NCBI GenBank assembly: GCA_013177895.1
Contig: JABLXV010000012.1
Span: forward strand, 1 to 58,725
Length of the DNA stretch: 58,725 nt
Source: Brevinematales bacterium
Lineage (GTDB): Bacteria > Spirochaetota > Brevinematia > Brevinematales > GWF1-51-8
Direction: 5' to 3'
Shown: in pieces, positions 5,030 to 58,541 of the stretch
Position numbering within the stretch: position 1 is the stretch's first letter
Layout of the letters: the number at the start of each line of letters is the position of its first letter
The notes under the pieces: model-generated
What the model was told of the DNA's origin: nothing
Databases searched by the model: none
Seen by the model: the letters and a program-made list of their open reading frames with translations, nothing else
Made by a program: the position numbers and the translations under genes

Positions 5030-5691
5030 CACACACCTCCCAGATAACGTTTATGTTCTTCTATGCGTTGCCTGACAACGGCGTCGGGGGCAGGAATCTT
5101 GCGCCGATGCCGGTCTTCCCAGACTAATTCATAATTCATCTTCCAGTTCGGATCCCATTCACGCGCCCGAGGTAGGGTAACTTCCCTGAACACCTTTCGG
5201 TGCGATTCGAGGTCCTCCTGCGCGTGCTGCCTGCACTCCGATTTCCATGGCTCGCCGACTTCGATTGTAGTATTCTCTTCCATATTCTCGAGCCATGTGA
5301 AGTCAAAGTACAGGTTGCCTGCGAAGCCGTCCACCGCAAGCTCGAGGTTCATCTTGTTCATCAGGTTGTTAACGGCCTCGGTCAACTCGTACACGTTGGT
5401 GACCTTTTCCGCTGCCTCGATAATCATACGGCAGTACTTTACCTTGATCGGCTCGTTGATCTCTTTGTAGAACGCCATGCGCGCGGTCTCCTGATCCTTG
5501 ACCAGCGCGATTGCGCACTTGAGAGGCAGGTCTCCCACTCTGGTTTTAAAATCCTCCAGTGTGGCGCACCCTTCGATGGCTGCCAGCATATCCAGCTCCG
5601 CCTTGTAGGAGAAAGGATACAGCGGGTTGTTTTCGTATTTCTTCACCCTGGCCCTGTAGTAAGCCAAGTAATCGGCGTGTCGCTGATCCAT
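5029..5691 (-). CDS. Uncharacterised protein, first gene of a two-gene operon
   Basis: This is a 220-aa charged, helical protein with no recognised domain, signal peptide or membrane segment. The start is set at ATG 5691, because an excellent Shine-Dalgarno (AGGAGG) lies just upstream. A longer open frame to 5730 has no such site. Trp-rich patches (FTWLENMEE, WDPNWKMNYELVWEDRHRR) recall the aromatic patches in the downstream partner, which suggests the two proteins may act together. The stop codon overlaps the start of the downstream gene. The pair is GC-rich, unlike the AT-rich genes before and after it. Confidence 0.75.
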   Translation of the reverse strand: MDQRHADYLAYYRARVKKYENNPLYPFSYKAELDMLAAIEGCATLEDFKTRVGDLPLKCAIALVKDQETARMAFYKEINEPIKVKYCRMIIEAAEKVTNVYELTEAVNNLMNKMNLELAVDGFAGNLYFDFTWLENMEENTTIEVGEPWKSECRQHAQEDLESHRKVFREVTLPRAREWDPNWKMNYELVWEDRHRRKIPAPDAVVRQRIEEHKRYLGGV

Positions 5692-10400: not shown

Positions 10401-10552
10401 GGGTTACGCTTGTCTTCGGTATCACATTCTCGACCCTGCTGACACTGATACTGGTGCCGGTATTGTATTCGATTTTAGAAGTGACCCTGAAGGAGACGTT
10501 ACCCGAACGGGTCAGGAAGCTCGCGGGTAAGATATTTCCGAAGAAGGCTTAA
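7433..10552 (+). CDS. RND (AcrB/HAE1-type) efflux pump
   Basis: This is an inner-membrane proton-driven exporter of 1039 aa, the normal length for the AcrB superfamily. The N-terminal transmembrane helix is followed by a large periplasmic porter domain. The family motif GMIVDDSIVIAENI (about residues 391-404) lies in TM4 with the adjacent acidic pair expected for proton relay. A second set of helices follows from about 855, with IGIVALSGVVVNSAI and a long C-terminal helical hairpin. A Gly-rich ribosome site (AGGGGGAG) precedes the ATG. The gene follows the TolC gene closely. The substrate is unknown. The missing adaptor gene is odd: it may lie elsewhere, or another adaptor may be shared. Confidence 0.9.
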   Translation: MKIIEFFIKQNKIMNLIVALIVGVGVYFFINGQKEAFPTFTVNQIYINTIYPGANAKTIENQVTYPIEEKLKNLSGIQKIESSSRENISSIILTVDPAFENKLNDIKSDVQNQIDEIVFPDGTEKPKVNVFDEGLIPVIRVLVAGGKDEWALRIVAKKFQKEIEGIGGIGGVSLQGYRDEEIIIECNPVKLKEKGISVDEVINAVRMKNVSVPSGEVYQNGKTFLIRVESSFTTPDEIENIVIRANDAYQGVYVKDVAKVIKGFKKASTFNHANGQKGIEVLIKKNKKGDTIKISDSVNEVVKKYQSLFPDMKFVIYSDTAVYVKNRLSILGNNAFLGLFFVVLILFIFFDFATSFWTVLGMPVAFCTAIIISNSMGISLNLMSMFGFIIVVGMIVDDSIVIAENIYQKKEQGLSNLEACVQGTREVILPIFVSILTTIAAFMPLLLITGTIGKFFSVIPTVVTITLIASLAEALLVLPGHLFHIKWKKKQGETGALSKKSQMFRWLQVKYSAFLGNVLKHKFISLAIFLVVSGALMYVSVINVPFQFNTGRVDEYEIVMDLPPSYSLTMTDQAVSNIEVFLLSKSPTIVQDVVSVIGQESAGTFLVTGDNKATIRVILNPARPENFNEIEFRDEIIAFAKTNYQLGNLEVRAIVAGPPPKKAVDVVLTGENFNEILSAAELVKSYVATLSNTADVRLDYQEGKSEVWLVIDELKAKSVQLSPSQIAAAIRNVFDGGIATSIKEKGDEIKVRVKYDAISSATYKTLKELKIKNSMGYSIDYNFFGSLETKKGISETRHFNLDPTVSVLGNLKNPYDKFNSSATINQKIKMQYKNGIPEFPGVKVQYGGEDEDSGRTVRDILFAYLIAFVLIFIQLVALFKRYSQTLIVLLTIPFGLIGAYFGLFLNGMSLSSTAMIGIVALSGVVVNSAIIMIDYINSKRKDGLSSHDAIIEGSAKRLRSVVMTTFTTIVGLVPLAYGWGGKEEYLMPLGVTLVFGITFSTLLTLILVPVLYSILEVTLKETLPERVRKLAGKIFPKKA

Positions 10553-10636
10553 ACGCCTCCGTATAAAAGCTTTTCAGAAATATATAAAAATATGGTAGAA
10601 AGATAGATTGAATAAAACTTTTTATAGGGGTTTATT

Positions 10637-12256
10637 ATGGGTTTCTCTTCTTATTCAGATATACTAATAGTCGGCGGGGGAATAGCCGGACTGACTGCCG
10701 CCGCATTTCTTTCAAAAGCGGGATTAAAAATTGAACTTTGCGAGAAGGAAAAAACCACCGGCGGATTGGTTAATTCATTTAATCATAATGGGTTTGTTTT
10801 CGACGGCGGAATACGCTCGATAGAAAATTCCGGGATAGTATTTCCCATGCTGAAACAGTTAGGAATTGAAATAGAATTCCTACCCAGTGAAGTATCTATC
10901 GGTATCGGAAAAGACGTTATAAAGGTGTTATCCAAGGATAGCCTAGAAGATTATCATCAACTCCTTAATAAAACATTTCCGGGGAACATAAAAGATGTTT
11001 CAGCGATCATTCAAGAAATCAGGAAGATTATGGGATATATGGATATTCTGTATGGCATTGAGAATCCTCTTTTTATGGATTTAAAGAATAATCCGAAGTA
11101 TGTTTTCAAGACCATTTTGCCGTGGGTTTTAAAATATATGCTAGTAATGCCAAAGATATCGAAATTGAATAATCCGGTTGACGAATACCTGACAAAGTTC
11201 TCGGATAATCAGGAACTAATCGATATCATCGCGCAGCATTTTTTCCAAAAAACGCCGACATTTTTCGCACTCAGCTATTTCAGTCTTTATCTGGATTATC
11301 GTTATCCTAAAGGGGGCACAGGAACTCTTACCTCGGAACTGGAAAAGTTCATTACCCGCAATGGCGGTATTATCAGAAAAGAAGTTGAAATTGTCGAAAT
11401 CAATCCGCAAATTAATGAGGCGGCCGACATTCATGGAAATATTTACGGTTATAAAAAACTTCTTTGGGCGGCAGATCAAAAGAACCTGTATAACATCGTC
11501 GATTTGGAATCGTTTACCAATCAGAAGGCTGCGCGAAAAATTCAGGCAAGACAAGAATTGCTGAAGGATAAGATCGGGTGCGATTCAGTATTTACATTAT
11601 ATCTGACGGTTAATCTGGATAAATCTTATTTTTCCGATATTGCAAGCGCCCATTTATTCTATACACCTTACAAAATCGGATTATCAAAAATTCCGTTAAA
11701 GCAGATAATGAATTCCGATCTGAATGGACAAGCATCATTTATCAACAATAAACCGCAGATCAAGGAATGGCTGCAAAAATACCTTGAATTGACTACCTAT
11801 GAAATTTCAATCCCCGTACTTCGGGATAATTCACTTGCCCCCGCCGGTAAAACAGGATTGATTGTTAGTACTCTGTTTGATTATTCTCTGATGGAACATA
11901 TACAAAAAAACGGATGGTATGATGAGCTAAAGAAATTTATGGCAGATTGTATGGTAGATGTTTTGAACTCTACAATTTTCCCCGAATTAAAAAAATCGGT
12001 TATCGATAATTTTACATCATCCCCGTTAACATTAAAAAGGATTTCCGGTAATTCGGATGGCGCGATTACCGGATGGTCGTTTACCAATGAAACAATTCCC
12101 GCGGTGAATAAAATGATTAAGGTATCCAAGTCGGTTTTTACACCTATACCGGATACTTATCAGGCGGGGCAATGGACGTATAGTCCATCGGGGCTACCGA
12201 TTTCTATTCTGACAGGGAAACTCGCGGCGGATAAAATCCTTAAAGACCTGAAGTAA
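10637..12256 (+). CDS. FAD-dependent phytoene-desaturase/carotene-isomerase-like oxidoreductase
   Basis: This is a 539-aa flavoprotein of the CrtI/CrtO/retinol-saturase superfamily. The N-terminus carries the dinucleotide-binding motif IVGGGIAGLTAAAFLSKAG (about 11-29), then the acidic residue and EKEKTTGG sequence that follow it in this family. The C-terminal signature TYQAGQWTYSPSGLPISI (about 508-525) matches the 'G.w..PG.G...' block that contacts FAD. Substrates of relatives include carotenoids, retinoids and other polyenes; this one is unknown. The gene converges on an SDR gene and overlaps its 3' end by 17 nt. It is AT-richer than the core genes downstream of 16 kb. Confidence 0.8.
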   Translation: MGFSSYSDILIVGGGIAGLTAAAFLSKAGLKIELCEKEKTTGGLVNSFNHNGFVFDGGIRSIENSGIVFPMLKQLGIEIEFLPSEVSIGIGKDVIKVLSKDSLEDYHQLLNKTFPGNIKDVSAIIQEIRKIMGYMDILYGIENPLFMDLKNNPKYVFKTILPWVLKYMLVMPKISKLNNPVDEYLTKFSDNQELIDIIAQHFFQKTPTFFALSYFSLYLDYRYPKGGTGTLTSELEKFITRNGGIIRKEVEIVEINPQINEAADIHGNIYGYKKLLWAADQKNLYNIVDLESFTNQKAARKIQARQELLKDKIGCDSVFTLYLTVNLDKSYFSDIASAHLFYTPYKIGLSKIPLKQIMNSDLNGQASFINNKPQIKEWLQKYLELTTYEISIPVLRDNSLAPAGKTGLIVSTLFDYSLMEHIQKNGWYDELKKFMADCMVDVLNSTIFPELKKSVIDNFTSSPLTLKRISGNSDGAITGWSFTNETIPAVNKMIKVSKSVFTPIPDTYQAGQWTYSPSGLPISILTGKLAADKILKDLK

Positions 12257-46307: not shown

Positions 46308-46550
46308 TTATCGCTTCTCTTCGCTGTTCCGCGCGCACGCGACCAGATGGCCTACCGTCATCTGGTCGTCCGATAACGTTAACGGGATACTGGTCTCGAA
46401 CGTGCTCTCGACCGATACGTATATCTCTATCAGGTCTGTTTCGCTGGCGCCTAAATCCTTAATGAGATAGGAAAACATATCGATTTCCCGGCGGGGCATT
46501 CTGAGTTGTTCGGATACAATTTTAGTGACCCGGTTATAGATCCTACCCAT
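46308..46550 (-). CDS. Acyl-carrier-protein-like protein with altered attachment site
   Basis: This 80-aa protein follows the ACP fold pattern along its length: VTKIVSEQL near the start, then LIKDLGASETDLIEIYVSVESTFETSIP and a final TVGHLVACA. In ordinary ACPs the second helix starts LGADSLD, where Ser carries phosphopantetheine. Here the aligned residue is Glu (LGASETD) and a Ser sits one place earlier. Either the attachment has shifted or the protein does not carry an acyl chain. ATG 46550 with GAGGAAA is the best start. It is divergent from the phage island, and no fatty-acid or polyketide gene is near. Confidence 0.75.
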   Translation of the reverse strand: MGRIYNRVTKIVSEQLRMPRREIDMFSYLIKDLGASETDLIEIYVSVESTFETSIPLTLSDDQMTVGHLVACARNSEEKR

Positions 46551-46749
46551 GCTTTCCTCTTCCTGAAGTTTTGAAAAGGAGAATTCGGAAAAAAACGCCC
46601 GAATTCTATCGCCTAACGGTCGCTTCATTCTATTTTGTCCGCTGAAAAATGTCCAATTTATTTCGGATTCCCGTATAAAAAAAACGTCAACCGTACTCCC
46701 TCTAAAATTGGCTACTATATAGAAAGCACAAAAAAAGGAGGACTGACGG

Positions 46750-47601
46750 ATGATAACGCTGAAGAATATCGAAATGCTTCGGGCGGGGCCGACCAACGAC
46801 GGGCGATATGTGTCCGGGAGAAAAATCGCCAAGATATACCGGGATACCCTGATCGCGATGGCGGACGGCCTCAATCCTAAGGTGAAGGTGGGGGATTCGC
46901 ATGATTCCGCCGAGGTGTCCGGCGTCATATCGAGAATCCTGCATGCGGGCGACGCGCTGATGGGGGATATCGATGTCGCCGACGAGATGTTCGAGAGTTT
47001 GCGGAACGGCGCCATCCCCGACGACCGCTCGGTCGAGATCGCCTTCGGTTTCACCCTCTCCAACGGGCGGACGCTGAAGCACGTACTGACCGGTATCGTA
47101 TTCGGTGTGGCTCTCCCGGCGGAGCATTCGCTCGCCTCCGTGTTCGAGTCCGCAGCCAATGCCAGTTACTTCCGGCATATCTCCCACTCCACCGCGGTTA
47201 CCGCCGCGACAGTGGAAATCGGGATTGCCGAGTACTCGCGGCTCAAGACGGCCGCCGGAGAGTCGATACCGCAGTCCGGCGAGGCGGACGAGCGTATCGA
47301 ACGGTACGAACGCGAGGCGAAGGAATTATACCTTGACACGGCGCTCGACAGCGACGTTGCGTTCCCCGGCCTGCGCAAAAATCTTGAGACTATCTACGAG
47401 GGAGTGAAACGGATGTCCGGGCATGATAACGCGCTTCGCTGTATCCGCGAACTGTTCACATCGGGAGCGATACTGCATACGTCGCCGGGCATACCGCTCG
47501 TGAGCGCCGAACGCCAGCCCAAGACCTGCGCGGCGGACGGGGGTTTGGATCCCACCAGTCATTACGATAATTACATAGGAGGTTTCAATGGCTCTCATTG
47601 A
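46750..47601 (+). CDS. Phage prohead protease/scaffold (Mu gpI-like)
   Basis: This 283-aa protein begins the island. Residues about 1-140 resemble the Mu I/prohead protease group: GDSHDSAEVSGVISRILHAGDALMGDIDVADEMF, RNGAIPDDRSVEIAFGF, and HVLTGIVFGVALPAEH. The 'l.gdidvpd.~~~~i..G..p.rSvei' block is the usual guide. A possible catalytic His lies in GDSHD, with Ser in DRSVEI. Residues about 165-283 are helical and charged, as expected for a fused scaffold. An AGGAGG precedes the ATG. Its 3' end overlaps the decoration gene by 14 nt. Confidence 0.75.
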   Translation: MITLKNIEMLRAGPTNDGRYVSGRKIAKIYRDTLIAMADGLNPKVKVGDSHDSAEVSGVISRILHAGDALMGDIDVADEMFESLRNGAIPDDRSVEIAFGFTLSNGRTLKHVLTGIVFGVALPAEHSLASVFESAANASYFRHISHSTAVTAATVEIGIAEYSRLKTAAGESIPQSGEADERIERYEREAKELYLDTALDSDVAFPGLRKNLETIYEGVKRMSGHDNALRCIRELFTSGAILHTSPGIPLVSAERQPKTCAADGGLDPTSHYDNYIGGFNGSH

Positions 47602-48199
47602 GAAGTTTAAAGACGAGGGAGTCGAACGTCTCGGTAACGGGGTGGTCGCCGCAGGGGAGAGTGTCGTACGCGGGACTATCGCCATGTTCAACGCCGCGGG
47701 GTATATCGAGGAAGTGGACGATACCGCCGGATGCGTGTTCGCGGGTATCGTGAAAGCGTCGGCGGACGAGGGCGAATCGGCCGAGTTCGACTACGGCAAT
47801 CCGTACTTCTATCCCTCGGCGGGCGCGGTTCTCTCGGATATCGGCGATCCGGTATATCTTTCCGGCGCGGGTACGCTCGCGAAGACCTCGGCGAATTTCA
47901 TCCCCGCCGGGCGTATTATCGACGCCGAACCCGGTGTAGGATGGTGGATCGATCCGCTCGCGGTCGCTTTGCCCGCGTGGGGTCAGGTTACCACCGACGC
48001 GGGCGGCGAAGTCGCGGTTACCGGGATGAGCGCGGACGGTATCGTCCTCGCGACTCTCGCGGAAGACCCCGGTTCCTACAAGTCCCTTTCGGATGTCGTA
48101 TGCGAAAGCGGAAAGTTCACAGTCTATGCGACCACCGGTTCCGCCCGCGCGGCTCTCGCGTCCAAGAAAATCAATTACCTTATTCTCGCTAAGGCATAG
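47588..48199 (+). CDS. Phage capsid decoration protein (DUF2190-like)
   Basis: This 203-aa beta-rich protein has the DUF2190 pattern in its first half: SVVRGTIAMFNAAGYIEEVDDTAGCVFAGIV, then GAVLSDIGDPVYLSGAGTLAKTS and GWWIDPLAV. Such proteins are small capsid cementing proteins. The second half (about 130-203) is an extra domain with Ala/Gly-rich strands. It sits between protease and capsid genes, exactly where decoration proteins lie in Mu-like and lambda-like heads. AGGAGG precedes the ATG. Confidence 0.75.
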   Translation: MALIEKFKDEGVERLGNGVVAAGESVVRGTIAMFNAAGYIEEVDDTAGCVFAGIVKASADEGESAEFDYGNPYFYPSAGAVLSDIGDPVYLSGAGTLAKTSANFIPAGRIIDAEPGVGWWIDPLAVALPAWGQVTTDAGGEVAVTGMSADGIVLATLAEDPGSYKSLSDVVCESGKFTVYATTGSARAALASKKINYLILAKA

Positions 48200-48220
48200 C
48201 GGAATAAAAAGGAGGAAACG

Positions 48221-49102
48221 ATGCCTATTGACATAGCGGAACTCAACCAGATCGAGAAACTGGTGCGCGACGAATTCGGACAGGCCTTTTCGCAGGCTCC
48301 GGTGAGCTACCAGCTCTACACGTCCGAAATCGTCGACACCGAATCGATAACCCCGTTCGAATGGATCGGCGCCCTTCCGCGGGTACGCGAATGGATCGGC
48401 GCGCGCCATATCGAAGATATGAAGAACTACGACTACACGATCAAGAAGAAGGATTGGGAATTGACCATCCGCGTGCCCTACCGCAAGATGTGGGAAAGCT
48501 CGAAGACCATGCTCGCGGCGTTCGTACGCCAGCGGGTTTCCCAGCTTGGCTCCCAATTCAGGAAGGACTATCCCTCGGAGATCGTCGTACAGGCGCTCGA
48601 GAACGGGACTTCCAATCTGGCGTATGACGGTATCCCGTTCTTCGCGGACAGCGGGCGTACCAATGTGAACCTCAAGAACGGCAGCGGTACGACGGTGGAT
48701 AATCTGATCACGGATATCGAGACCTGCCGCGCGGCGATGAAAAAGTTCAAGGACGACAAGGGCAGAACCCTGAATATTACCGGCGACGTCGCGGTTATCC
48801 CGCCCGAACTGGAAATCAAGTTCATGGAGATCACCCGCGCCCGGCTTCGCGACGGTTCGGACAACGTGCACTTCGGCTCGCTCGAGTACGTGGTCGACGC
48901 GCGTCTGACCGATACCTCGGACTGGTACTTCATCGCGTCCAACGAGTTCATCAAGCCCGTGCTTTTCGTATCGCTCGGCGGCGTAAACGTCGCCGTCAAG
49001 GATACCACGTTCGATAACAAGTCCCTGACTGTCGGCGCTGACGCCACAGGGAATGTCGGTTATTCGTTCCCCGAACTCGCCATAAAGGTCGTGAACTCAT
49101 AG
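48221..49102 (+). CDS. Phage major capsid protein (Mu gpT-like)
   Basis: This 293-aa protein, about the usual length for gpT, carries the family's N-terminal pattern: FGQAFSQAPVSYQLYTSEIVDTESITPFEWIGALPRVREWIG, then DYTIKKKDWELTIRVPYRKMWE, and LAYDGIPFFADSGRTN in the middle with LEIKFMEITRARLRDGSDNVHFG later. This is the shell subunit of an HK97-fold head. There is no sign of truncation, so the head could still be built. AGGAGG precedes the ATG. Confidence 0.88.
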   Translation: MPIDIAELNQIEKLVRDEFGQAFSQAPVSYQLYTSEIVDTESITPFEWIGALPRVREWIGARHIEDMKNYDYTIKKKDWELTIRVPYRKMWESSKTMLAAFVRQRVSQLGSQFRKDYPSEIVVQALENGTSNLAYDGIPFFADSGRTNVNLKNGSGTTVDNLITDIETCRAAMKKFKDDKGRTLNITGDVAVIPPELEIKFMEITRARLRDGSDNVHFGSLEYVVDARLTDTSDWYFIASNEFIKPVLFVSLGGVNVAVKDTTFDNKSLTVGADATGNVGYSFPELAIKVVNS

Positions 49103-49117
49103 CGCTCCCTCCCATCC

Positions 49118-49147
49118 GCGGGCCGGGGACCTCCGTTCCCGGTCCGC
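49118..49147 (+). other. GC-rich hairpin after the capsid gene
   Basis: GCGGGCCGGGGA (49118-49129) pairs with TTCCCGGTCCGC (49136-49147): 12 bp including two G-T wobbles, with a 6-nt loop. There is no T-run. It may be a partial attenuator or RNA-stability element separating the highly expressed capsid message from the tail genes. Confidence 0.55.
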
Positions 49148-49171
49148 AAATATTATGAAAAGGAGAAAAGG

Positions 49172-49333
49172 ATGACGTCTGCGAATACAAAAAAAGATTC
49201 GCCCCAGATTATGAAGAGAACCGGCCGCCTTGTTCTGCTGGACAAACTCACGGGCAAACCGTTCGAGGTGAAAGACCCCGACATCTGTGAGAAACTTTTG
49301 TCCAAAGACAACGGGCGCTATCTCCGGGCGTAG
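49172..49333 (+). CDS. Small phage protein (53 aa), position of Mu gp35
   Basis: This short frame starts with ATG 49172 behind AGGAGAAAAGG and ends at TAG 49331-49333, 8 nt before the next gene. It reads as a normal basic protein with RTGRLVLLDKLTGKPFEV and ICEKLLSKDNGRYLRA. It sits between capsid and gp36-like genes, where Mu has gp35, but it is much shorter and no sequence match is claimed. The good ribosome site and tight packing support a real gene. Confidence 0.6.
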   Translation: MTSANTKKDSPQIMKRTGRLVLLDKLTGKPFEVKDPDICEKLLSKDNGRYLRA

Positions 49334-49341
49334 GAGCGGGT

Positions 49342-49746
49342 ATGGCATACTGTACGGTGGACGATGTTAAGGCGGTGAAGGCGGTCAAACGGCTTCTCGT
49401 GCCGGACGGGGCATGGAGCGACGACGATATCTCCGGCCTGATCGACCAGATCGGCGGGAATGTGATCGATGCGCGGATAGGGAAGTGGTATCAGGTTCCG
49501 GTGACCCCGGCTCCGGGCGTGCTCTCGCGCATATGCAGGCTGAAGACCGCCTACGAGATGCTCGCGCAGGAGTACGGCGAGAACAAGGGTGAGTACGCCT
49601 ACCTGAACCGCGAAGCGGAGTGGCTCCTCGAAGGCGTAGCAGGGCGGAGAATCCCGCTCGAGTACGCGGAGACCGAGGCTTATCCCGCGCCGGGGATTGT
49701 GAACGGCGAAGGACGCTTCTTCTCGCTGGAGGATAACGATGGATGA
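49342..49746 (+). CDS. Phage head-tail connector (DUF1320, Mu gp36-like)
   Basis: This 134-aa protein has the DUF1320 pattern: MAYCTVDDVKAVKAVKRLL, ISGLIDQIGGNVIDARIGKWY, then LSRICRLKTAYEMLAQEYG. Such proteins act at the head-to-tail joint (adaptor) of Mu-like and related phages. The next gene overlaps its end by 8 nt. AGGAGCGGGT precedes the ATG. Confidence 0.8.
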   Translation: MAYCTVDDVKAVKAVKRLLVPDGAWSDDDISGLIDQIGGNVIDARIGKWYQVPVTPAPGVLSRICRLKTAYEMLAQEYGENKGEYAYLNREAEWLLEGVAGRRIPLEYAETEAYPAPGIVNGEGRFFSLEDNDG

Positions 49747-50173
49747 GATACTTCTCGCGCTGAAGGAAATCCTCGCGGAACTCACGGGAGTGGATTCGGT
49801 AATCATCGGCGAGAGTACGTCCGATGTTCCCGCGAGCGCGCGCGTCTTTATTATTATCGGCGAGGACGACCCGTCGGAGGCCTACGAGTACTCCGGCACG
49901 ATGAAGCGGCACGGTTTCGCGGCGCGCATCCGAACCTGTTCGGCGCATCCAGACCCGTTCGCCGAAAAGGCGATACTGGCGTCTATCGCGCTGTCGGGGA
50001 GTGTGCGTGACAAAATCGCCGGTAACCGGACGCTCGGCGGGCTGGTCTCATCGGCGCGGCTCGAAAGTATCGGCGCGTCGGTCGAGAACGCATCATCGGC
50101 GGGACATACGAACGAACGGATAAGAACGCGGGAGATGCGTTACGAATTCTCCCGTTTCGAGGCCGCGGAATAA
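49739..50173 (+). CDS. Phage tail-completion/neck protein (Mu gp37/DUF1834-like)
   Basis: This 144-aa protein starts MDEILLALKEILAELTG, then GESTSDVPASARVFIIIGEDD, and has a beta-rich middle typical of tail terminator and neck proteins. The order after the gp36-like gene matches Mu gp36-gp37. The sequence match to DUF1834 is weak by eye, so the call rests mainly on position and fold pattern. Confidence 0.6.
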   Translation: MDEILLALKEILAELTGVDSVIIGESTSDVPASARVFIIIGEDDPSEAYEYSGTMKRHGFAARIRTCSAHPDPFAEKAILASIALSGSVRDKIAGNRTLGGLVSSARLESIGASVENASSAGHTNERIRTREMRYEFSRFEAAE

Positions 50174-50183
50174 AGGAGGTAGA

Positions 50184-51104
50184 ATGGCATACGATATGAA
50201 TCCCCAGGCTATATCGCTGGGGGCGTGTAAAATCTGGTTCTGGGACGACGACGACTGGACGGCGATCGGCGCCACATCCGGCGGGACTGTTATCTCCTAC
50301 GAGCCCACATATTACGACCTGAAAATCGACCAGCTCGGGGAAACGGTCGTGAAGAAGATGCTGCGCGGGGAATCCGCGAGCATCAGTTTCGGGATAGCCG
50401 AGACGGGGCTGGATAAGCTCCAGATCGCCATACCGTTCGGGACAATGTATACCGACGGGGGCGACCGCGCGATGGGGGTGGGCGTGAACGCCGGGGGCGA
50501 CCTGCTCGATAAGACCCTCAAGCTCAGGGTGCATCCCATCAACCGCAGGGGTACCGGCGGTACGGACGACGAAACCTATCTCGACGACGATTTTGTTATC
50601 TGGAAGGCGGGCAACGCGGGTGCGGTGGAAATCCCGTTCTCGCCGGACGAGCCCCGGGTGTACCGCGTGACGATGGCTATATTCCCCGACCTGGAGCAGG
50701 CCGCAGGGTGCTACCTCTTCATAGTGGGAGACCCCACGGTCGCGGGAGTCGATACGACGCCGCCGTCGGTGAGCGCGGGTAAGGTCGACGTCGCGGGCGT
50801 AGAGACCGATATCGCGGGCGCGGCCGATGTGGATATAGATACGGCTATCGAGCTGACGTTCAGCGAGGAGATCAATCCCGCTACGGTAAGCGGTTCCTTC
50901 TTCATCCTGAAGGCGGATGATAGTACGTCGGCGGTCAACTGTACACTGAGCTACGACTCGGATAATAAAAAGGTCACGATGACCCCGCCGTCGAACCTCG
51001 CGAACAGTACGGTATATGAAGTGATTGTGAACGGCGTGCGGGACTTGTCCGATAACAGGATGTCCACCCCGTATATCGCGCGTTTTACTACAGAATCGGT
51101 ATAA
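50184..51104 (+). CDS. Phage major tail tube protein with C-terminal Ig-like (Big_5/SbsA) domain
   Basis: This 306-aa protein has a tube-like N-terminal domain (about 1-185): KIWFWDDDDWTAIGATSGGTVISYEPTYYDLKIDQLGETVVKKMLRGESASISFGIAE, TGLDKLQIAIPFG, which is the 'G.~~~GG~~~~~~~~~~~i~vD..g' start of siphophage tube proteins. From about 190 a SbsA-type Ig-like domain follows (DTTPPSVSAG, IELTFSEEINPATVSGSFFI, YEVIVNGVRDLSDN). Ig domains on tube proteins decorate the tail surface and can bind cell surfaces. No sheath gene accompanies it, so the tail should be non-contractile. Confidence 0.78.
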   Translation: MAYDMNPQAISLGACKIWFWDDDDWTAIGATSGGTVISYEPTYYDLKIDQLGETVVKKMLRGESASISFGIAETGLDKLQIAIPFGTMYTDGGDRAMGVGVNAGGDLLDKTLKLRVHPINRRGTGGTDDETYLDDDFVIWKAGNAGAVEIPFSPDEPRVYRVTMAIFPDLEQAAGCYLFIVGDPTVAGVDTTPPSVSAGKVDVAGVETDIAGAADVDIDTAIELTFSEEINPATVSGSFFILKADDSTSAVNCTLSYDSDNKKVTMTPPSNLANSTVYEVIVNGVRDLSDNRMSTPYIARFTTESV

Positions 51105-51106
51105 TC

Positions 51107-51194
51107 CGGGACTGTCCCGGACACGGAAGGGGAAATCCGGACTCGTCAACCGAGGGATTTCCCCGGTGCGCGGAAACAATTACGGGACAGCCCG
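51107..51194 (+). ncRNA. Candidate structured RNA element in the phage tail operon
   Basis: The gap between tube and chaperone genes folds into nested stems. P1 has 12 bp with one bulged A (51107-51119 with 51183-51194). P2 is a short CAC/GTG stem (51122-51124 with 51166-51168). P3 has ten perfect pairs (51129-51138 with 51155-51164). P4 has CTCG/CGAG around a 5-nt loop (51142-51145, 51151-51154). The fold covers 88 nt of a 114-nt gap. It has no T-run, so it is not a simple terminator. It could be a structured RNA, a regulatory switch for the tape-measure half of the operon, or an inserted small repeat. Confidence 0.6.
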
Positions 51195-51218
51195 CGTCTT
51201 TATTCATTCGGAGGCGTT

Positions 51219-51770
51219 ATGGGAATTTTCGCGAGTATGGAAATATATATCGAGATCAAAGCCGGATGGGGAGGGAAGGTGCGGGTGCGGAAGCTCCCGT
51301 TGGGCGAACGGATGGAATTCATCGTCGCCTACGATAGTTATGTAGTGAATCCTAGCCCCCATGCGGAGTACGAACTGGCCGCGCGGGTAGCGGTAAACCC
51401 GCCCGTTTTACTGAGCGGAAAGGATAGAAGGAAGATCATATCCGCCGCGCTGCGGCTCAATTCGCGCGGGAATGCGGGCGGAAACGGTGGGAACCCGGGC
51501 GAGGCATGTCTCCAGCATGTGCTCGCGTACTTCGGGCGGGAGTTCGGGTACAGCAAGGACGATACGATGCGGCTATACCCCGAGGAAATTGAGCTGATGA
51601 TCGCGGAGAACGAGAAAATGAAACGCGCGGACCTGACGCTTCTCGCGGGGATGGTGCATATCCCCCGGAAGACCCTGCAAACTCTCGAAAATGCCGACCG
51701 GGCCCGAACGGACGCGGGTCTCGACCGGCGCGCAGTGGATACCCTGAAGAAAACACAAAGGAGACGATAA
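51219..51770 (+). CDS. Phage tail assembly chaperone-like protein
   Basis: This 183-aa protein lies directly before the tape measure gene, the position of tail chaperones. It has MEIYIEIKAGWGGKVRVRKLPLGERMEFIVAY, a middle tail-chaperone-like helix region, and a C-terminal AYFGREFGYSKDDTMRLYPEEIELMIAENEKM. This recalls the 'D...m...w..~~.l.~le...~~~~' end of gpT-type extensions. No slippery site for a programmed frameshift was identified, and the gene reads as one continuous frame. A Gly-rich low-complexity spot (GNAGGNGGNPG) marks a linker. GGAGGCG precedes the ATG. Confidence 0.55.
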   Translation: MGIFASMEIYIEIKAGWGGKVRVRKLPLGERMEFIVAYDSYVVNPSPHAEYELAARVAVNPPVLLSGKDRRKIISAALRLNSRGNAGGNGGNPGEACLQHVLAYFGREFGYSKDDTMRLYPEEIELMIAENEKMKRADLTLLAGMVHIPRKTLQTLENADRARTDAGLDRRAVDTLKKTQRRR

Positions 51771-52720
51771 TGGCGGTGGATATACGTGAAGCGGGCGATT
51801 ACCTGAACGCGATGCGGCAATCGGAAGGATACGCGCAGAAGCTGAAAAAGGACTGGGCGGATATCGCCGGGATTACCGGGGAGGCCGGGGGCGCGCAGGA
51901 TAACCTGAACGGTAAAGTGCGGGAGCAGAACGAATTGACGAAAAATCAGAAACGCGAACTCCGCGACGCCCTATCGGTCACGAACTCATTGATAGACGAA
52001 TTCGTAAAGCTCGCGCCGGAGACCCGGGATTGGGCGGACGCGCTGCAGGGCGCGTTAAGCGCGGCGGTGCGTTTCGCGAGCGGCGATATAATCGGCGGTA
52101 TCCTCCAGGCGATCGGAAGTATCGGCGAAGCGATCAGCGAGGTTATTCTCGTGACCAAGTCTTGGGGAGACACGCTGAAAAATGTAGACGATCTGTACGA
52201 CGACGTCAGAAGCGCGGTCGAGAAATCGTGGACTACGATGGATAAACAGGTAAAAGCGGGTGAATTGAGTCTTCAAGACGAACTCGCGGCGCTGAAAACT
52301 CAGCAGAAATTTCAGGGATTTTTAAACCTGAGCGATGAGGAACGTCTCGACCTGAAATTAAAAATAATGGATATAGAGAAGGATATCTACGATCAATCCG
52401 TCAAGAAGGAAGAGGAACTCAGGAAAGCGCAGGAGGCGCGCCGGAACAGTGAAATCGCCGACCTCCGGAAAAAGATCGAACTCGGATTGATCGATATGGA
52501 AAATCTCCGCGCGGTGAACGGCGTAGGGTCGACGCTGCGTTCGCTCGGATACAGCGGAATCGACCTTGCGGGAGAGCTGAAAAATCTGGGAATGGGAGGT
52601 TTTGCCGGACAGCGATCCGTCAGCGTCGGGCAGATCAACCAGTATAATTACGAGGCCACCCCGGATTACGCGGCGCGCGGTATCAGCGGGATTATCAGGG
52701 ATACCACGTCAGGGGGATAA
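51770..52720 (+). CDS. Short phage tape measure-like protein
   Basis: This 316-aa protein has helical N-terminal and C-terminal parts and a hydrophobic Gly/Ala-rich centre (ALSAAVRFASGDIIGGILQAIGSIGEAI, about 95-122), the usual composition of tape measure proteins. The ATG overlaps the upstream stop (TAATG), so it is coupled to the chaperone-like gene. Tape measure length sets tail length at about 0.15 nm per residue, so 316 residues would give only about 45-50 nm. Most phages have more than 600 residues. This fits a short-tailed particle, or a reduced relic. Confidence 0.6.
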   Translation: MAVDIREAGDYLNAMRQSEGYAQKLKKDWADIAGITGEAGGAQDNLNGKVREQNELTKNQKRELRDALSVTNSLIDEFVKLAPETRDWADALQGALSAAVRFASGDIIGGILQAIGSIGEAISEVILVTKSWGDTLKNVDDLYDDVRSAVEKSWTTMDKQVKAGELSLQDELAALKTQQKFQGFLNLSDEERLDLKLKIMDIEKDIYDQSVKKEEELRKAQEARRNSEIADLRKKIELGLIDMENLRAVNGVGSTLRSLGYSGIDLAGELKNLGMGGFAGQRSVSVGQINQYNYEATPDYAARGISGIIRDTTSGG

Positions 52721-52811
52721 CCGTTCCGTAAATCCGCGGATAACGGCATATTAATAAAATCGAATCAAATTGACAGGATAGCATCCCCTCATACGGGGAC
52801 AGGAGGAAACT

Positions 52812-54521
52812 ATGCTCAGCGGAAAATCGCTAAAAATGATGGCGTTTCAGGAAAAGAAACTATTCTTAGAGAATATTCTGCCTACCTTCCAGGAGATCAA
52901 ACGGGATTACGCGACGCTCCTCGGGACATACACCCTGTACGATATTCCCGCCGAAGGAGGTTTATCCTATCTGGATACGAAAGCCGCGGATTCTTACCTC
53001 TGCGTGTGGAAGACCGCCGCCCCGGCGTATCTGGATACCCCGTTAACCGGAATGGCAGCGGCGGGTACGAACAACACAACCCATATTACTCTCGCGGCGG
53101 GAGCCTCCGCTATCGACGACTATTATAACGGGATGGTGATCCGGTTCACGGCGGGGACGGGGAGCGGACAGGTCAATATTATCACGGACTATAACGGGTC
53201 GACACGGGTGGCGACGGTTACGAAGGCATGGGGAACCGCCCCGGTAGAGAGTAATACGTCCTATAAGATCGGCGGGAGTGATAAAATCGAGACCTCTGAT
53301 ATATCCGCGCATACCCATATTATCGTTACCGGCCTGACGGTAAATTCTTATAACCAGATTCAGACGGTGTATAACAAAGTATCGTTCGGGTTCGCGACAA
53401 TGGACGGGGATTTTTCGAAGGTTCTGCTGAGCTATATGGTGTTTGTCGACGATACCAATATGCAAACCGGATACCCTATAGTCAGCGGATGGGGCGCGTA
53501 CGGGGTCGAGATCAGCAGGTTGGATATTCACGGGGAGAACGAAATTACCCATAAGAATATCATCCTGAACAATGTCCTGATAAAGTACGATTTTTCTTAT
53601 ATGCCCTTTGCAACCCCCGTCTATTTTAACACCGATACTGCCTGGAGCAATATCATTATAGAGAATACCAGCCCCGTGAGCGAGCATTTTCAACTTTTAC
53701 TGTACGGCGGTGTGATGAGTTTACAGAACGTGCTGACCGGGCCGTCGGTAATTTTCAGTGTGGGGAAGTTCGCCGGAACACCCGGTTTGAATCTTACCAA
53801 CGTCCATATAGGCGGAGGCTTCGGCTTCTGGGGAGTGAACGGCGAGCCCGGGTATAATGTGGTCTTTGCCCGCTCGTTACAGGTTTCGGTAAACTCAGTG
53901 GAGAACTATATTGTTCTCCCCGAACAGGACAGCAGGGTATTCTATCTAGGAAACTTTTCCATAGACTATAATCTGTTAGATTTCGACAGCTTTATCGGCC
54001 AAACCGCCGAATTCAGCGCGGAGTATGTTTCCGATGTGACTCTTTTCGGAAAGGGAACGAAGCTGTACTATACGATGCGTTTTATTCCTGCGCAGGTTGA
54101 CGATAATCTGAAACGTTTCGGCGACGGTTGGATATTTGCGGTCCAGCGGGAGGATTTCGAATACGAACTGGTTACCGCGCAGAAGTATATCAAGAACTTC
54201 AAGCTCTACAATGAGGCGGGATGCACCACCGAATACGATTACCAGAACGACGAAAATTTTCTGATCCTCGGGGTGGATGCGCAGGGCAATAAAGCGGTGA
54301 TTTGCTGGTTCGGGAATATGCTCTATTCCACCATCCTGTCCGGCTGCGCGGATAATACGGTCTATACGGTGGCTCATTGTTTCCAGATATGGACGCCGGA
54401 AACGCGCCAGAATCTTGCGAATATTTTTAAAGATCAGTCTACCCATCGCGGTGTGACGAATAGCCCGATGTCCGGGGAAGTCCGTTTTAATAATATGGAC
54501 AACGAGATTCTTTTTTACTAA
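52812..54521 (+). CDS. Phage fibre/surface protein 1
   Basis: This 569-aa protein has a short N-terminal helix region and then the repeated-fibre motif AAGASAIDDYYNGMVIRFTAGTGSGQVNIITDYNGSTRVATVTKAWGTAP (about 92-142), which is a common building block in tail fibres. After it comes a long beta-rich region with many Asn, Gly and Ser, as in a receptor-binding or beta-helical stalk. The gap before it (52721-52811) holds two small palindromes and a TTGACA. AGGAGG precedes the ATG. Host range is unknown. Confidence 0.65.
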   Translation: MLSGKSLKMMAFQEKKLFLENILPTFQEIKRDYATLLGTYTLYDIPAEGGLSYLDTKAADSYLCVWKTAAPAYLDTPLTGMAAAGTNNTTHITLAAGASAIDDYYNGMVIRFTAGTGSGQVNIITDYNGSTRVATVTKAWGTAPVESNTSYKIGGSDKIETSDISAHTHIIVTGLTVNSYNQIQTVYNKVSFGFATMDGDFSKVLLSYMVFVDDTNMQTGYPIVSGWGAYGVEISRLDIHGENEITHKNIILNNVLIKYDFSYMPFATPVYFNTDTAWSNIIIENTSPVSEHFQLLLYGGVMSLQNVLTGPSVIFSVGKFAGTPGLNLTNVHIGGGFGFWGVNGEPGYNVVFARSLQVSVNSVENYIVLPEQDSRVFYLGNFSIDYNLLDFDSFIGQTAEFSAEYVSDVTLFGKGTKLYYTMRFIPAQVDDNLKRFGDGWIFAVQREDFEYELVTAQKYIKNFKLYNEAGCTTEYDYQNDENFLILGVDAQGNKAVICWFGNMLYSTILSGCADNTVYTVAHCFQIWTPETRQNLANIFKDQSTHRGVTNSPMSGEVRFNNMDNEILFY

Positions 54522-54587
54522 GGAATAACATCCCTCGACACATTCGGGATGACGGGATGCGGTACAGAAGTGAAACAGGAGTAAAAT

Positions 54588-55769
54588 ATGCGTTTTATAT
54601 GCCCGGAAATCGAAGGAGAGGTTGCGTTAAGCGACCAGATATTACAATTATACGGGATGGAGGATGTGCCGAAGGAGTTCCTGACGGACAGCGACGGGAA
54701 CACGCTTAAGCGCCTGATAAACAGCACCCGATACGACAGCGGACAGGTGAAATCGCGGCACTTCCTGTACGGACGGCATGGGACTCTCGCGAGGTACTTT
54801 CAGTCGTACCCTTACGCACCGTACACCCCGCGGACGATCGCCCAACTCGCCGCGAGCGCGGGGATTTCTATCGATACGAATTTCAGCGACAGCGCGAGCT
54901 ATTATTTCCACTTCCGCGCGTTTCTCGACCCTGCTGCGCCCTTCCGTACCAATCTTTGGTACAGCGTTTTTACCGATAACGGGATATTTCTTGCCCAGCC
55001 GGTCCGGCGTTCGGGCGCGGTACAGTTGACTGGATTTACGCTGGTCTCGGTGGTCGAGCGCGAGGAGTTTTTCGGCAATCCCGGATACACCGGGGATACC
55101 GCGAAAAACTTCCTGCTGAACGGGGATTTCACTTCCATCATCCCCGCGGCTATGAATTCCGCCCAGAAAACCCGGGTACTGAATAAGTACGCCTCCCAGA
55201 ACGGGGTGGTGAAAATATGGAGCGGTAAGAATTGCGTCCTTCCATGCGATTATTTTATTACCGGCGGTAAGGTCTACGTGGTGCTGTCGAAGAAAGACCT
55301 GCGGAACGGGATGTACGAGTATATCGGGGTGCGCGAAACGGATGAAACGCACTCATTTACAGTGACCGACGATAGTTATAATGTCCGCCCATATGCCTAT
55401 ACGCCGGAAATAATCGACCAGTGGCACTACGTGGGGACGACCGGCGAACCTTCGTTTGTTTATTCATGGGTGAATTATAACGCGAGCGCCGGAGGGAATA
55501 TGAAACTCCGCTTCAGGCGCATTCCCGGCGGACTACTGAAAGTCGAGGGAATGATAAAAAGCGGGACGTCCAATCAGGTATTCACCCTGCCGTCCGGCTA
55601 TCGCCCGGCGAACCCGGCATCCTCGGAAGCGGAAGGGATAGCGGTTCATTATGACGGGACTACTCAAAAGCCGGGACGGACATTTATTACATCGAACGGG
55701 AATTTCTATGTTTCTCAGGCGCAGGGTGCATATTGGGTGGCGATTAACCTGAGTTTCGGTTTGGATTAA
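54588..55769 (+). CDS. Phage tail fibre/tip protein 2
   Basis: This 393-aa protein has an N-terminal part of unknown type and a C-terminal domain (about 310-393) that looks like a fibre tip: LLKVEGMIKSGTSNQVFTLPSGYRPANPASSEAEGIAVHYDG, then FITSNGNFYVSQAQG. The 'vkG.vk.g....f.LP.GyrP' pattern is typical of phage fibre tips. The 66-nt gap before it holds a repeat remnant (CATCCCTCGACA...CGGGATGACGGG). AGGAG precedes the ATG. The two fibre-like genes in series suggest a fibre and an accessory. Confidence 0.65.
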   Translation: MRFICPEIEGEVALSDQILQLYGMEDVPKEFLTDSDGNTLKRLINSTRYDSGQVKSRHFLYGRHGTLARYFQSYPYAPYTPRTIAQLAASAGISIDTNFSDSASYYFHFRAFLDPAAPFRTNLWYSVFTDNGIFLAQPVRRSGAVQLTGFTLVSVVEREEFFGNPGYTGDTAKNFLLNGDFTSIIPAAMNSAQKTRVLNKYASQNGVVKIWSGKNCVLPCDYFITGGKVYVVLSKKDLRNGMYEYIGVRETDETHSFTVTDDSYNVRPYAYTPEIIDQWHYVGTTGEPSFVYSWVNYNASAGGNMKLRFRRIPGGLLKVEGMIKSGTSNQVFTLPSGYRPANPASSEAEGIAVHYDGTTQKPGRTFITSNGNFYVSQAQGAYWVAINLSFGLD

Positions 55770-55779
55770 GGAGGCTGAT

Positions 55780-56112
55780 ATGGCGACGGTAAAAGAGGTG
55801 CTCGAGCGGGTGACGGAGACGAATACGAAACTCGACGCGCTCGATATCAAACTCGACGATTATAAGGAACAGCAGAACAGGGTATATAACGAGCTCGAAA
55901 AACGTATCCGCGATATGGAATATCGCCATGAGGTATGCTCGAGGGAAAAGGGCGCGAAACTGGACGAACTGATGCCCCGCAACAGGATGAACCGTTGGAG
56001 GGAACTGCTCATGTTCCTGGTTGCAATCGGGGCGGTGGTCGTATCGGTAATCATTCCGGTCGCGGTACTGATTCAGCGGGTGTCGGCGATGATTCCGGGG
56101 GCGGTGAAATGA
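55780..56112 (+). CDS. Coiled-coil single-pass membrane protein (XhlA/holin-like)
   Basis: This 110-aa protein is a long helical coiled coil (VKEVLERVTETNTKLDALDIKLDDYKEQQNRVYNELEKRI) ending in one hydrophobic segment (LLMFLVAIGAVVVSVIIPVAVLI, about 76-98). This is the plan of phage XhlA-type lysis helpers, which associate with holins. AAGGAGG precedes the ATG. Its stop overlaps the next gene. Confidence 0.65.
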   Translation: MATVKEVLERVTETNTKLDALDIKLDDYKEQQNRVYNELEKRIRDMEYRHEVCSREKGAKLDELMPRNRMNRWRELLMFLVAIGAVVVSVIIPVAVLIQRVSAMIPGAVK

Positions 56113-56411
56113 GCGTCCGGCGCGGAGGGAGTATGAAGCCCGGGAAGGGATGGATACGCGCCCGGCTCCGGCGGACGGCGTATCATATGATGACCCTGTC
56201 GTTTCTGACATGGTGCGCGCTCCTCGCGTGCTACTTCATTAACCGGCAGGATATCGATATCCAGTTCCTGACATTCACGGCGGCGGTGATCGGGATTAAA
56301 CGGTTTCTGACCCTTCGGCAGGCTCAGGGTGACGTCATTCCGGGCGCTCGTCCCGACTCCCTTGGCGGGGTGTCGAGGAAAGGAGAAGATGGTGATGATG
56401 AAAATTATTAA
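56109..56411 (+). CDS. Small basic membrane protein, possible holin, with repeat-derived tail
   Basis: This protein is about 100 aa. Its ATG at 56109 overlaps the upstream stop (ATGA). ATG 56133 with GGAGG nearby is an alternative start. A basic N-terminus (KGWIRARLRRTAYHMM) precedes two short hydrophobic segments (TLSFLTWCALLACYFI and FLTFTAAVIGI), a holin-like plan. The last 35 residues (LRQAQGDVIPGARPDSLGG) come from an intergenic repeat ('cccttcggcaggctcagggtgac') that has been read through. The natural C-terminus is therefore probably altered. The gene overlaps the start of the next. Confidence 0.5.
   Translation: MSVRRGGSMKPGKGWIRARLRRTAYHMMTLSFLTWCALLACYFINRQDIDIQFLTFTAAVIGIKRFLTLRQAQGDVIPGARPDSLGGVSRKGEDGDDENY
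56311..56333. repeat. Dispersed-repeat-type sequence inside a gene
   Basis: This stretch begins CCCTTCGGCAGGCTCAGGG and resembles the 'cttcg.caggctcaggg.tgac' repeats found between genes in many bacteria. Its counterpart just before 54588 (CATCCC...GGGATGACGGG) is a second such remnant. Its presence inside an open frame is unusual. Confidence 0.45.
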
Positions 56412-56907
56412 AATCGTCCGCGGCGGGTCGCGGGATACGCTGACGCTCGCGAACGTGGACAGGTACGACAGCGCTATCGAGGTGATTAATAGCGCGGGCG
56501 CGTTGATATACCGCGGCGAGCATGTGAACACCGACCCGACTATCGCGCATCACGGGGGCGTGCTCGCGCAGGGGGTGTATTACTACTTCATCGGGCTGCA
56601 CAAGGGAACGTACCGGGCGCCGTTATTATTCACAGTCACCGACACCGACCGGCTCGTGAAAATCCGCCAATCGGGCCACCTCACCCTGTCAGAACGCACC
56701 CTGCCGTCGATAGTCCCGAATCCCGCGCAGGGCGGCCGCATGATAATGACCTGCGTCAATATCCATAAGGGCGGGAAGTACGAGGACTTGTCGGAAGGGT
56801 GTATCACGATTTACCCTGCGGAGTGGGACGGGTTTATCGCGTGCTTCGAGGCGGGGGAGATCGGGTACTGCGAGCTGATACAAGTAAGCGAAGGAAGGCG
56901 TACATAA
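56389..56907 (+). CDS. Candidate phage cell-wall enzyme with L,D-transpeptidase-like H...SxGC motif
   Basis: This protein is about 172 aa. Near its C-terminus (about 126-143) it carries MTCVNIHKGGKYEDLSEGCITI. A His followed about 10 residues later by Ser-x-Gly-Cys is the signature of L,D-transpeptidase/YkuD-type and related phage cysteine enzymes that act on peptidoglycan. The N-terminal part is beta-rich (TLANVDRYDSAIEVINSAGALIYRGEH). AAGGAG precedes a run of possible starts (ATG 56389, 56395, 56398). Its place after the holin-like genes fits a lysis role. The class is not certain. Confidence 0.55.
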   Translation: MVMMKIIKIVRGGSRDTLTLANVDRYDSAIEVINSAGALIYRGEHVNTDPTIAHHGGVLAQGVYYYFIGLHKGTYRAPLLFTVTDTDRLVKIRQSGHLTLSERTLPSIVPNPAQGGRMIMTCVNIHKGGKYEDLSEGCITIYPAEWDGFIACFEAGEIGYCELIQVSEGRRT

Positions 56908-56946
56908 ATCGAGAGGCGTTATTATGGTAAGCCGTCCCGCTCCTCC

Positions 56947-57017
56947 CCGCGCAATAAAAAGTGTGTAGCGCGGGATCGCGGGACTTTGCCGCGCAATAAA
57001 AATAAATTGAAGCGCGG
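56947..57017 (+). repeat. Two tandem hairpins with identical CCGCGC/GCGCGG stems
   Basis: CCGCGC (56947-56952) with GCGCGG (56968-56973), and CCGCGC (56989-56994) with GCGCGG (57012-57017). Each loop begins AATAAAAA. The two copies are about 42 nt apart in the short gap before the last gene of the island. They may be a protein-binding RNA pair or a small tandem duplication. Confidence 0.55.
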
Positions 57018-57032
57018 TATCGGAGGAAATAA

Positions 57033-57302
57033 ATGACATTGAAATGCGACGTGATACTGATCATTATATTTTTCATCATCGGGGCGGGCGGGGGATTTTC
57101 CCTCGGGTACGTATCCGCGCCGAAGGAGATCACGAATATCCAGAATATCGAGCAGACACAGATTCAGACACAGGCGCAAGGGCAGGTGACCGTGACGGTC
57201 GCGGGAGGCCGCGAACTCCAGTCTGTGCAGGTACAGCTCGACAGCCTCACGAATATCACGGTGCTGACGGTTACGAACGGGGTGACGAATAAATTACAAT
57301 AG
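57033..57302 (+). CDS. Small membrane-anchored protein, paralogue of 22752-23045
   Basis: This 89-aa protein has an N-terminal transmembrane helix with a Gly-rich face (IIFFIIGAGGGFSLGYVSAPKE), a Gln/Thr/Asn-rich middle (TNIQNIEQTQIQTQAQGQ) and the end LTNITVLTVTNGVTNKLQ. It shares the plan, the SAPK/TAPK junction and the TVTNG.TN end with the protein at 22752. The last part of its gene (57269-57291) is one copy of the 23-bp direct repeat found again at 58576. Function unknown; placement after the lysis-type genes allows a spanin-like or envelope role. Confidence 0.7.
   Translation: MTLKCDVILIIIFFIIGAGGGFSLGYVSAPKEITNIQNIEQTQIQTQAQGQVTVTVAGGRELQSVQVQLDSLTNITVLTVTNGVTNKLQ
57269..57291 (+). 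repeat. 23-bp direct repeat, left copy
   Basis: Identical to 58576-58598; starts GGTTACGAACGG and ends GACGAATA. This copy encodes VTNGVTN near the end of the small membrane protein. Confidence 0.9.
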
Positions 57303-57807: not shown

Positions 57808-58254
57808 ATGTATTCTATAAATTGTGATATCTCTCCTGACATTAAACCCGATTTTGTAACTGGAAGTAGTGAATTAAAAATAAATAGAGAATATATTCCC
57901 TCTATTAATAATGATTACGAACACACTATTCCAAAAGATTTAATGAACGAAAATAAAATTGAAAGTTGTGAAATTATCAATGAAAATTTTATTATAAACG
58001 GGGAATTTGAGGGTCTAATGCAGATTAAAGCTATAAAAGCGAAAATCGAAATTAAAGACGAGATGTACTTTATTACAACTAATCCATTTAATATTGTAGG
58101 TCATGGATGTAGTATGGAGGAGGCAATAAAAAGTCTTGCCATGAAATGGAGTATCGTATATGAAGATAATAAAAATACACCGGAAGAGGAATATCACCCG
58201 AAATATAAGCATTATAAAAAATTATTCGATGAATATCTTATGGAAGTAAAGTAA
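57808..58254 (+). CDS. HicB-like antitoxin candidate
   Basis: This 148-aa protein includes FNIVGHGCSMEEAIKSLAMKWSIVYE (about 90-115), which resembles the partial RNase-H-like fold of HicB ('G.G.T.eEA..~l...~'). The N-terminal half is beta-rich. It is directly coupled to the HicA-like gene: its TAA and the next ATG share a base (TAATG). No DNA-binding tail is visible. It is a candidate antitoxin by position and by a short motif only. Confidence 0.5.
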   Translation: MYSINCDISPDIKPDFVTGSSELKINREYIPSINNDYEHTIPKDLMNENKIESCEIINENFIINGEFEGLMQIKAIKAKIEIKDEMYFITTNPFNIVGHGCSMEEAIKSLAMKWSIVYEDNKNTPEEEYHPKYKHYKKLFDEYLMEVK

Positions 58255-58541
58255 TGAGTTCCTATAAACCAAAGGAAATTGAAACAGCTTTAAAGAATAA
58301 AGGGTTCTCTAAAAAGAACAACTCTCATAAGTATTTCAGTTTCTACTATGAAGGAAAAAAAATAGGGGATATTTACCCTTTTATTTCTCATAGCAAAGGA
58401 AAAGAGTATAATGACAGCTTACTAGATGCTTTAAAAAAAGAAATGAAAATGGATAGTAAAGAAAATCTATGTAAATTTATTGAATGTTCATTAACTCAAG
58501 AAGATTATATCAGAATTCTCAAATCACAAAATGTCATATAG
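58254..58541 (+). CDS. HicA-like toxin candidate
   Basis: This 95-aa protein resembles HicA-type mRNA interferases: PKEIETALKNKGFSKKNNSHKYFSFYYEGKKI (about 6-37), with the catalytic-type His in NSHKYF. ISHSKGKEYNDSLLDALKKEMKM follows, and then FIECSLTQEDYIRIL. The 'l.~~Gf.......H.~~~~.dgk....~~SHG.' series is that of HicA-like proteins of the longer group. The partner lies upstream, the reverse of the usual hicA-hicB order, although both orders occur. Confidence 0.6.
   Translation: MSSYKPKEIETALKNKGFSKKNNSHKYFSFYYEGKKIGDIYPFISHSKGKEYNDSLLDALKKEMKMDSKENLCKFIECSLTQEDYIRILKSQNVI

Follow-up and report, generated by a model that had tools for sequence, protein, structure and literature searches.

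Gene transfer agents (GTAs) are hard to distinguish from prophage remnants by sequence, since their genes are scattered (PMC11841831). A GTA of the spirochaete Brachyspira hyodysenteriae, BhGTA or VSH-1 (Brachygtaviriformidae), has a structural cluster of 16.3 kb and a single large terminase gene outside that cluster (PMC9662315). The small terminases of known GTAs have no DNA-binding domain (PMC11841831). Strict GTA criteria include packaging of mostly random host DNA, a head that cannot hold the entire element and delivery of DNA, and these are experimental (PMC9662315). The subject of this report is an island of phage-like head, tail and lysis genes at positions 46750-57302 of a 58,725-nucleotide stretch of DNA from Brevinematales bacterium (hereafter the window). 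The window is the whole of contig C12 of the draft genome G000 (3.6 Mb, 112 contigs, estimated 95% complete).

An initial annotation of the window had proposed either a domesticated particle with its packaging genes at another site or a capsid device that never packages DNA, and had suggested a search of the rest of the genome for a terminase and portal. That search found both on contig C65 (extract L002), which constitutes a second, packaging locus. Genome-wide, G000 has one PF03237 terminase and one PF06074 (Mu-type) portal, both on C65 (PF06074 was the only portal family searched), and help from another prophage was rejected on this count. The first proposal is strongly supported by this second locus, by the matching chromosomal positions of both loci in three species and by a motif that the loci share. 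In our opinion, the island is probably the head-tail-lysis half of a split, host-domesticated, vertically inherited and co-regulated particle of the GTA type, with C65 as its other half. The complementary content of the two loci, their joint conservation, their shared unique promoter and their equal guanine-plus-cytosine (GC) content make it likely that they produce one particle, and that this particle takes up DNA. The retention of complementary halves of an old virus at two fixed chromosomal positions, under a shared switch, points to a tamed virus-like particle with which these uncultured groundwater spirochaetes would export pieces of DNA.

The genome was compared with three congeners, G001, G002 and G003, all of them drafts. 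Proteins were identified by profile searches (PHROG, Pfam), and orthologues by gene-by-gene comparison among three species (G000, G001 and G003). Orthologues in G001 and G003 are 95 and 88% identical for the capsid protein, 91 and 74% for the large terminase, and 90 and 67% for the portal. Both loci have the same gene order and the same host flanks in the three species; the flanks comprise a PAS kinase, an SH3 protein and a carrier-like protein at the structural locus, and vanY, a beta-helix protein and an adenosine deaminase at the packaging locus. In G001, both loci are on one contig (packaging at about 27-38 kb, structural from 74 kb), about 36 kb apart, and the approximately 25 host genes that separate them are collinear with positions 15.5-46 kb of the window. 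The host-gene order of G003 matches, spread over two contigs. Together the two loci amount to about 18 kb. Their GC content is about 55.8%, against 49-50% in host DNA.

Ratios of nonsynonymous to synonymous substitution (dN/dS), approximate values obtained by the Nei-Gojobori method, range from 0.03 to 0.39 over the genes of both loci and are similar to those of flanking host genes. The synonymous distances (dS) of both loci, and the rank of the distances, match those of the host flanks in these three taxa. Comparison of the locus among relatives and a test of selection, both suggested by the initial annotation, gave synteny in three species and purifying selection. Its argument against simple decay also holds, because all frames are open and dN/dS is well below 1; decay was ruled out on these grounds. 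The annotation had considered that its proposal would be undermined by an attachment-site pair, by frameshifts in close relatives or by packaging genes just outside the window. No such pair and no frameshift were seen. Packaging genes just outside the window were rejected: the window is an entire contig, and in G003 the structural locus is bounded directly on its right by host genes, encoding a TPR protein and murG.

The motif was recognized in intergenic alignments of the three species as a promoter-like arrangement of CGTNAA, about 18 bases, TTNGCT and TATATAG upstream of both the structural operon and the portal gene. The strict pattern has 10 matches in the four genomes, versus 1 for the reversed pattern. 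Exactly two of the matches are in G000, one at each locus, and a relaxed pattern finds the same two only; three simulated 3.6-Mb Markov nulls gave no match. Two other hits, a strict one before amtB in G002 and one in G003 by a plasmid-like rep/par region, are regarded as unexplained or due to chance. A relation to sigma-54 promoters is not claimed, since the structural promoters have a -12-like GC but lack the -24 GG.

The features of the structural locus, in window coordinates, are as follows.

46685..46722 (+): promoter-like motif of the structural operon, CGTCAA-N-TTGGCTACTATATAG; the other G000 copy precedes the portal gene of C65
46750..47601 (+): head maturation protease/scaffold; phrog_3894, 9e-5; orthologues 77% and 56%
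47588..48199 (+): capsid cement/decoration protein; phrog_1731, 1.3e-12
48221..49102 (+): major capsid protein, Mu gpT type; PF10124, 1.5e-35
49172..49333 (+): 53-residue small protein; open, kept in three species
49342..49746 (+): gp36-like head-tail adaptor; PF07030, 2.5e-5, and phrog_195, 1.3e-4
49739..50173 (+): gp37-like tail completion protein by position; no family match; orthologues 80% and 54%
50184..51104 (+): tail tube with C-terminal Ig-like (Big_5) domain; phrog_2175, 2e-34, and PF13205, 1.4e-17
51219..51770 (+): tail assembly chaperone-like protein, 183 residues, by position and weak homology
51770..52720 (+): short tape-measure-like protein, 316 residues, by position and weak homology
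52812..54521 (+): tail tip/fibre-like protein 1; no family match; sister species 73% and 43%
54588..55769 (+): tail fibre/minor tail protein 2; phrog_3285, 4e-9
55780..56112 (+): membrane protein, possibly holin-like; weak match to phrog_689 (holin), 0.09; G003 orthologue 47%
56109..56411 (+): small membrane protein; G003 orthologue 52%
56386..56907 (+): putative cell-wall enzyme (weak); SEGC-type motif by eye
57033..57302 (+): small membrane protein, final gene of the island; G003 orthologue 61%

Every frame in the initial annotation of this ordered head-tail-lysis island is present, open and in the order given, and the window is indeed without a terminase or portal; the claim that packaging genes are missing is thus correct for the window and wrong for the genome. 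Profile matches back the protease, decoration, gpT capsid, gp36-like, Ig-domain tail tube and minor tail/fibre labels, and the major capsid protein also matches a solved gpT capsid structure (8rkc, 8e-28). The "small protein" corresponds to the 53-residue frame. The chaperone and tape measure labels agree with position and with weak homology to a colinear prophage of G001: the 183-residue protein is 25-26% identical to its counterpart there (E 2e-7 to 5e-11), and the 316-residue protein is 25% identical to part of a 1072-residue tape measure (E 8e-4). Family profile searches gave no significant match for either protein.

The "cell-wall enzyme" label is weak, its single match, to CHU_C, being under the cut-off; a structure prediction for this protein was too poor for use (predicted local distance difference test score, pLDDT, 39). 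The slot that it occupies differs by lineage, with an L,D-transpeptidase-like motif in the window and an M15-peptidase-like one in G003 (L017:5354-5959), both seen by eye, and non-orthologous replacement of the lysis enzyme is possible. Divergent from the structural operon is a gene for an acyl-carrier-like small protein (46308-46550; 94% and 74% in the sister species), which is better conserved than the adjacent SH3 and PAS-kinase genes and may be part of the element. Next to a DUF6941 protein, at the contig's right end, there is a pair with the sequence appearance of a HicB/HicA toxin-antitoxin system (57808-58541).

The packaging locus has the following features, in L002 coordinates.

3386-4675 (-): large terminase
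4665-5120 (-): small terminase
5355-5582 (-): small sigma-region-4-like regulator; phrog_36, 4e-5
between the preceding and the following entry: two proteins without assigned function
6264-7163 (-): 299-residue Rad52-like annealing protein
7767-8441 (+): S24-type repressor; S24 peptidase, 7e-22
8551-9534 (+): FRG-domain protein
9854-11065 (-): Mu-type portal

Profile matches of the large terminase, small terminase and portal are to PF03237 (1e-9), phrog_2 (2e-45), phrog_309 (5e-32) and PF06074 (6e-36). Invariant in the large terminase are the lysine and threonine of Walker A as well as E127, D255, D316, D390 and D394; from knowledge of the family, we take these to be the active-site residues (Walker A and nuclease acidic). 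The small terminase carries a helix-turn-helix (HTH) at residues 16-47 (HTH_23, PF13384, 8e-8), and the repressor retains the S24 serine and lysine plus an Ala-Gly site. The core fold predicted for the 299-residue protein is RAD52-like, and its top 23 matches among solved structures are all RAD52; the model is of low confidence overall (mean pLDDT 48, core 70-86).

The early operon, comprising the annealing protein, the regulator and the terminase, has a switch that differs from the shared motif, namely a perfect 20-base palindrome beside the repressor gene. Each genome has one perfect copy of this palindrome, next to the repressor itself, and the repressor operator was therefore rejected as a common switch for both loci; G001 has one additional site, with three mismatches.

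Directly after the large terminase gene, a DUF433/DUF5615-type pair (L002:2636-2713 and 2711-3326) is found in G000 and G001 and not in G003. In G000, the pair is followed by a duplicate of the final 26 terL codons, and it looks like an insertion at the terL 3' end that created a direct repeat. The FRG-domain protein between repressor and portal, a PADLOC candidate (PDC-S15, 1.5e-35), has kept its position in three species but evolves faster than its neighbours; it may guard the element or serve as superinfection defence. Upstream of the portal gene in 3/3 species is a gene for a ThiF/E1-like protein (L002:12564-13754) that weakly resembles E1-E2 and BilD defence proteins.

A plausible working of such a particle can be outlined. 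By binding its one palindromic operator, the repressor would keep the early/terminase operon off. Since the repressor has an S24 domain, DNA damage, acting through RecA, may trigger its self-cleavage. The early operon would then provide the terminase together with an activator, which would switch on both copies of the shared promoter, one before the portal gene and the other before the structural operon. Heads would fill with DNA and receive short non-contractile tails, and the cell would lyse; packaging, the choice of DNA and its delivery are presumed steps of this scheme.

Which DNA would be packaged is a separate matter. In G001 and G003, the motif scan, which used no protein information, also hit a lone second small-terminase gene. 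There are five such lone terS paralogues, three in G001, two in G003 and none in G000, and the motif or a variant precedes all five. No large terminase was found beside those that were inspected. Together with the HTH on the small terminase, these extra genes set the element apart from known GTAs. The five are located as follows.

L061:3947-4639
L060:12433-13095
L066
L067:1498-2169
L068

These genes possibly reflect mobile or satellite-like use of the particle. Alternatively, a spirochaete-specific, co-regulated split particle might export selected chromosomal regions, with interchangeable aiming factors directing one portal, motor and head to chosen sites; these factors would be the main small terminase with its HTH and the lone paralogues, the latter under the late promoter that portal and capsid also have. 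This is a sub-case of the domesticated split particle, with which it shares part of its probability, and in such a specific form it is doubtful: G000 has no lone terS, and no pac site was identified. It is left open because the HTH has been kept on the small terminase and lone small-terminase genes exist.

That the two loci are instead a still-active temperate phage, split by rearrangement or by insertion of host DNA and still replicating and mobile, is unlikely. Such a phage would account for the HTH of the small terminase, the phage-type repressor with its operator, the Rad52-like annealing protein and the lysis-like genes. However, it would hardly keep the same places and the same gene order in three species that are far apart in synonymous distance, with host genes both between and around its two parts. 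Moreover, in neither locus was a gene for an integrase, transposase, polymerase, primase or helicase seen, nor were attachment sites or a single excisable unit.

Quite unlikely, too, is the view that two unrelated prophage remnants are complementary by chance and either decay or are kept for other reasons. The nearest relatives of the large terminase and portal do differ from those of the structural genes; set against this are the motif that in G000 is found at these two loci only, their equal GC content, their exact complementarity without overlap and their joint retention in three species, with intact frames under selection. A DNA-free capsid or tail device, for protein delivery or bacteriocin-like, is very improbable even though the structural operon by itself has no packaging gene, because portal and both terminase subunits are intact, conserved and under purifying selection (dN/dS 0.08-0.33), the active-site residues of the large terminase are invariant, and in G000 the motif of the portal gene is common only to the structural operon.

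Several points weigh against a domesticated split particle of the GTA type. The reading is drawn from genome sequences. The phages with the nearest structural genes have a large terminase and portal that are not closely related to those of C65, so the two halves need not share one phage origin. The small terminase has an HTH, as would be expected of a sequence-specific phage, and absence of a DNA-binding domain is a GTA trait, albeit one outside the formal definition. An annealing protein is retained, whereas GTAs reportedly lack genes for DNA replication. The dS values are close to saturation for the distant species pair, and conservation rests on three draft assemblies, the third congener, G002 (73% complete), showing nothing. 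Finally, in G003 and G001 a relaxed scan found intergenic orphan copies of the motif that have no obvious protein gene downstream, at the following places.

L080, L081, L082, L087 and L088 (1501-1537)
L059:12902-12939

One orphan copy adjoins a plasmid-like iteron/Rep_3/ParA region.

If the domesticated split particle is real, it would be a second spirochaete lineage in which capsid, portal, terminase, repressor and tail have all been identified, and the genetic basis is known for few GTA lineages. The scatter of particle genes is traceable here by three-species synteny together with the shared promoter motif. The motif scan that revealed the lone terS genes may offer a general route to missing parts of split particles, and the retained DNA-binding small terminase makes random versus aimed packaging testable.

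Among conventional phages, the element most resembles Mu-like-headed siphophages such as Pseudomonas phage JBD30 and a complete siphophage-like prophage on contig C1 of G001 (L018), relatives of which are present in IMG/VR. These phages share with the element the gpT capsid and the order protease, cement, capsid, gp36, tube, chaperone, tape measure, fibre. The G001 prophage has in line a large-terminase-like protein, a portal-gpF fusion, protease, cement, gpT capsid (46%) and gp36-like protein, followed by a virion morphogenesis protein, tube, chaperone, the 1072-residue tape measure and two fibres; its portal is fused to both gpF and a PBECR2 nuclease-like domain (964 residues). In the element, by contrast, the packaging genes are at a second locus. 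Compared with this prophage, the split element has lost gpF, the PF05069 protein and two thirds of the tape measure (316 versus 1072 residues); in both G000 and G003 there is a single Mu-type portal, and gpF is absent. No single IMG/VR phage was found with close relatives of all three marker proteins.

Three traits by which GTAs are defined (PMC9662315) are found here: particle proteins from tailed phages (gpT capsid, Mu portal, terminases, tail tube), endogenised genes over several loci (two, identically placed in three species), and vertical inheritance with co-diversification, as indicated by synteny and dS in three taxa. The initial annotation had likened the island to VSH-1. The likeness holds as an analogy of layout and not as shown homology, because only distant matches were found outside the genus in 393 Spirochaetota genomes, a set not verified to include Brachyspira (one match for the large terminase, two for the capsid). 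As judged from these searches, the element is restricted to its genus among the genomes sampled. Like BhGTA/VSH-1, it occurs in a spirochaete, has a structural cluster of similar size with the large terminase outside it, and co-diversifies with its host genus (PMC9662315); gene order is syntenic between species here, whereas the Brachyspira clusters are described as lacking synteny. Like RcGTA of Rhodobacter capsulatus, it is distributed over several loci of about 20 kb in total and would have a short non-contractile tail with a short tape measure (PMC9662315, PMC7296036). Unlike RcGTA, it has a gpT capsid and a Mu-type portal, its main structural cluster contains neither portal nor terminase, and its small terminase carries an HTH, which is absent from that of RcGTA (PMC6854486).

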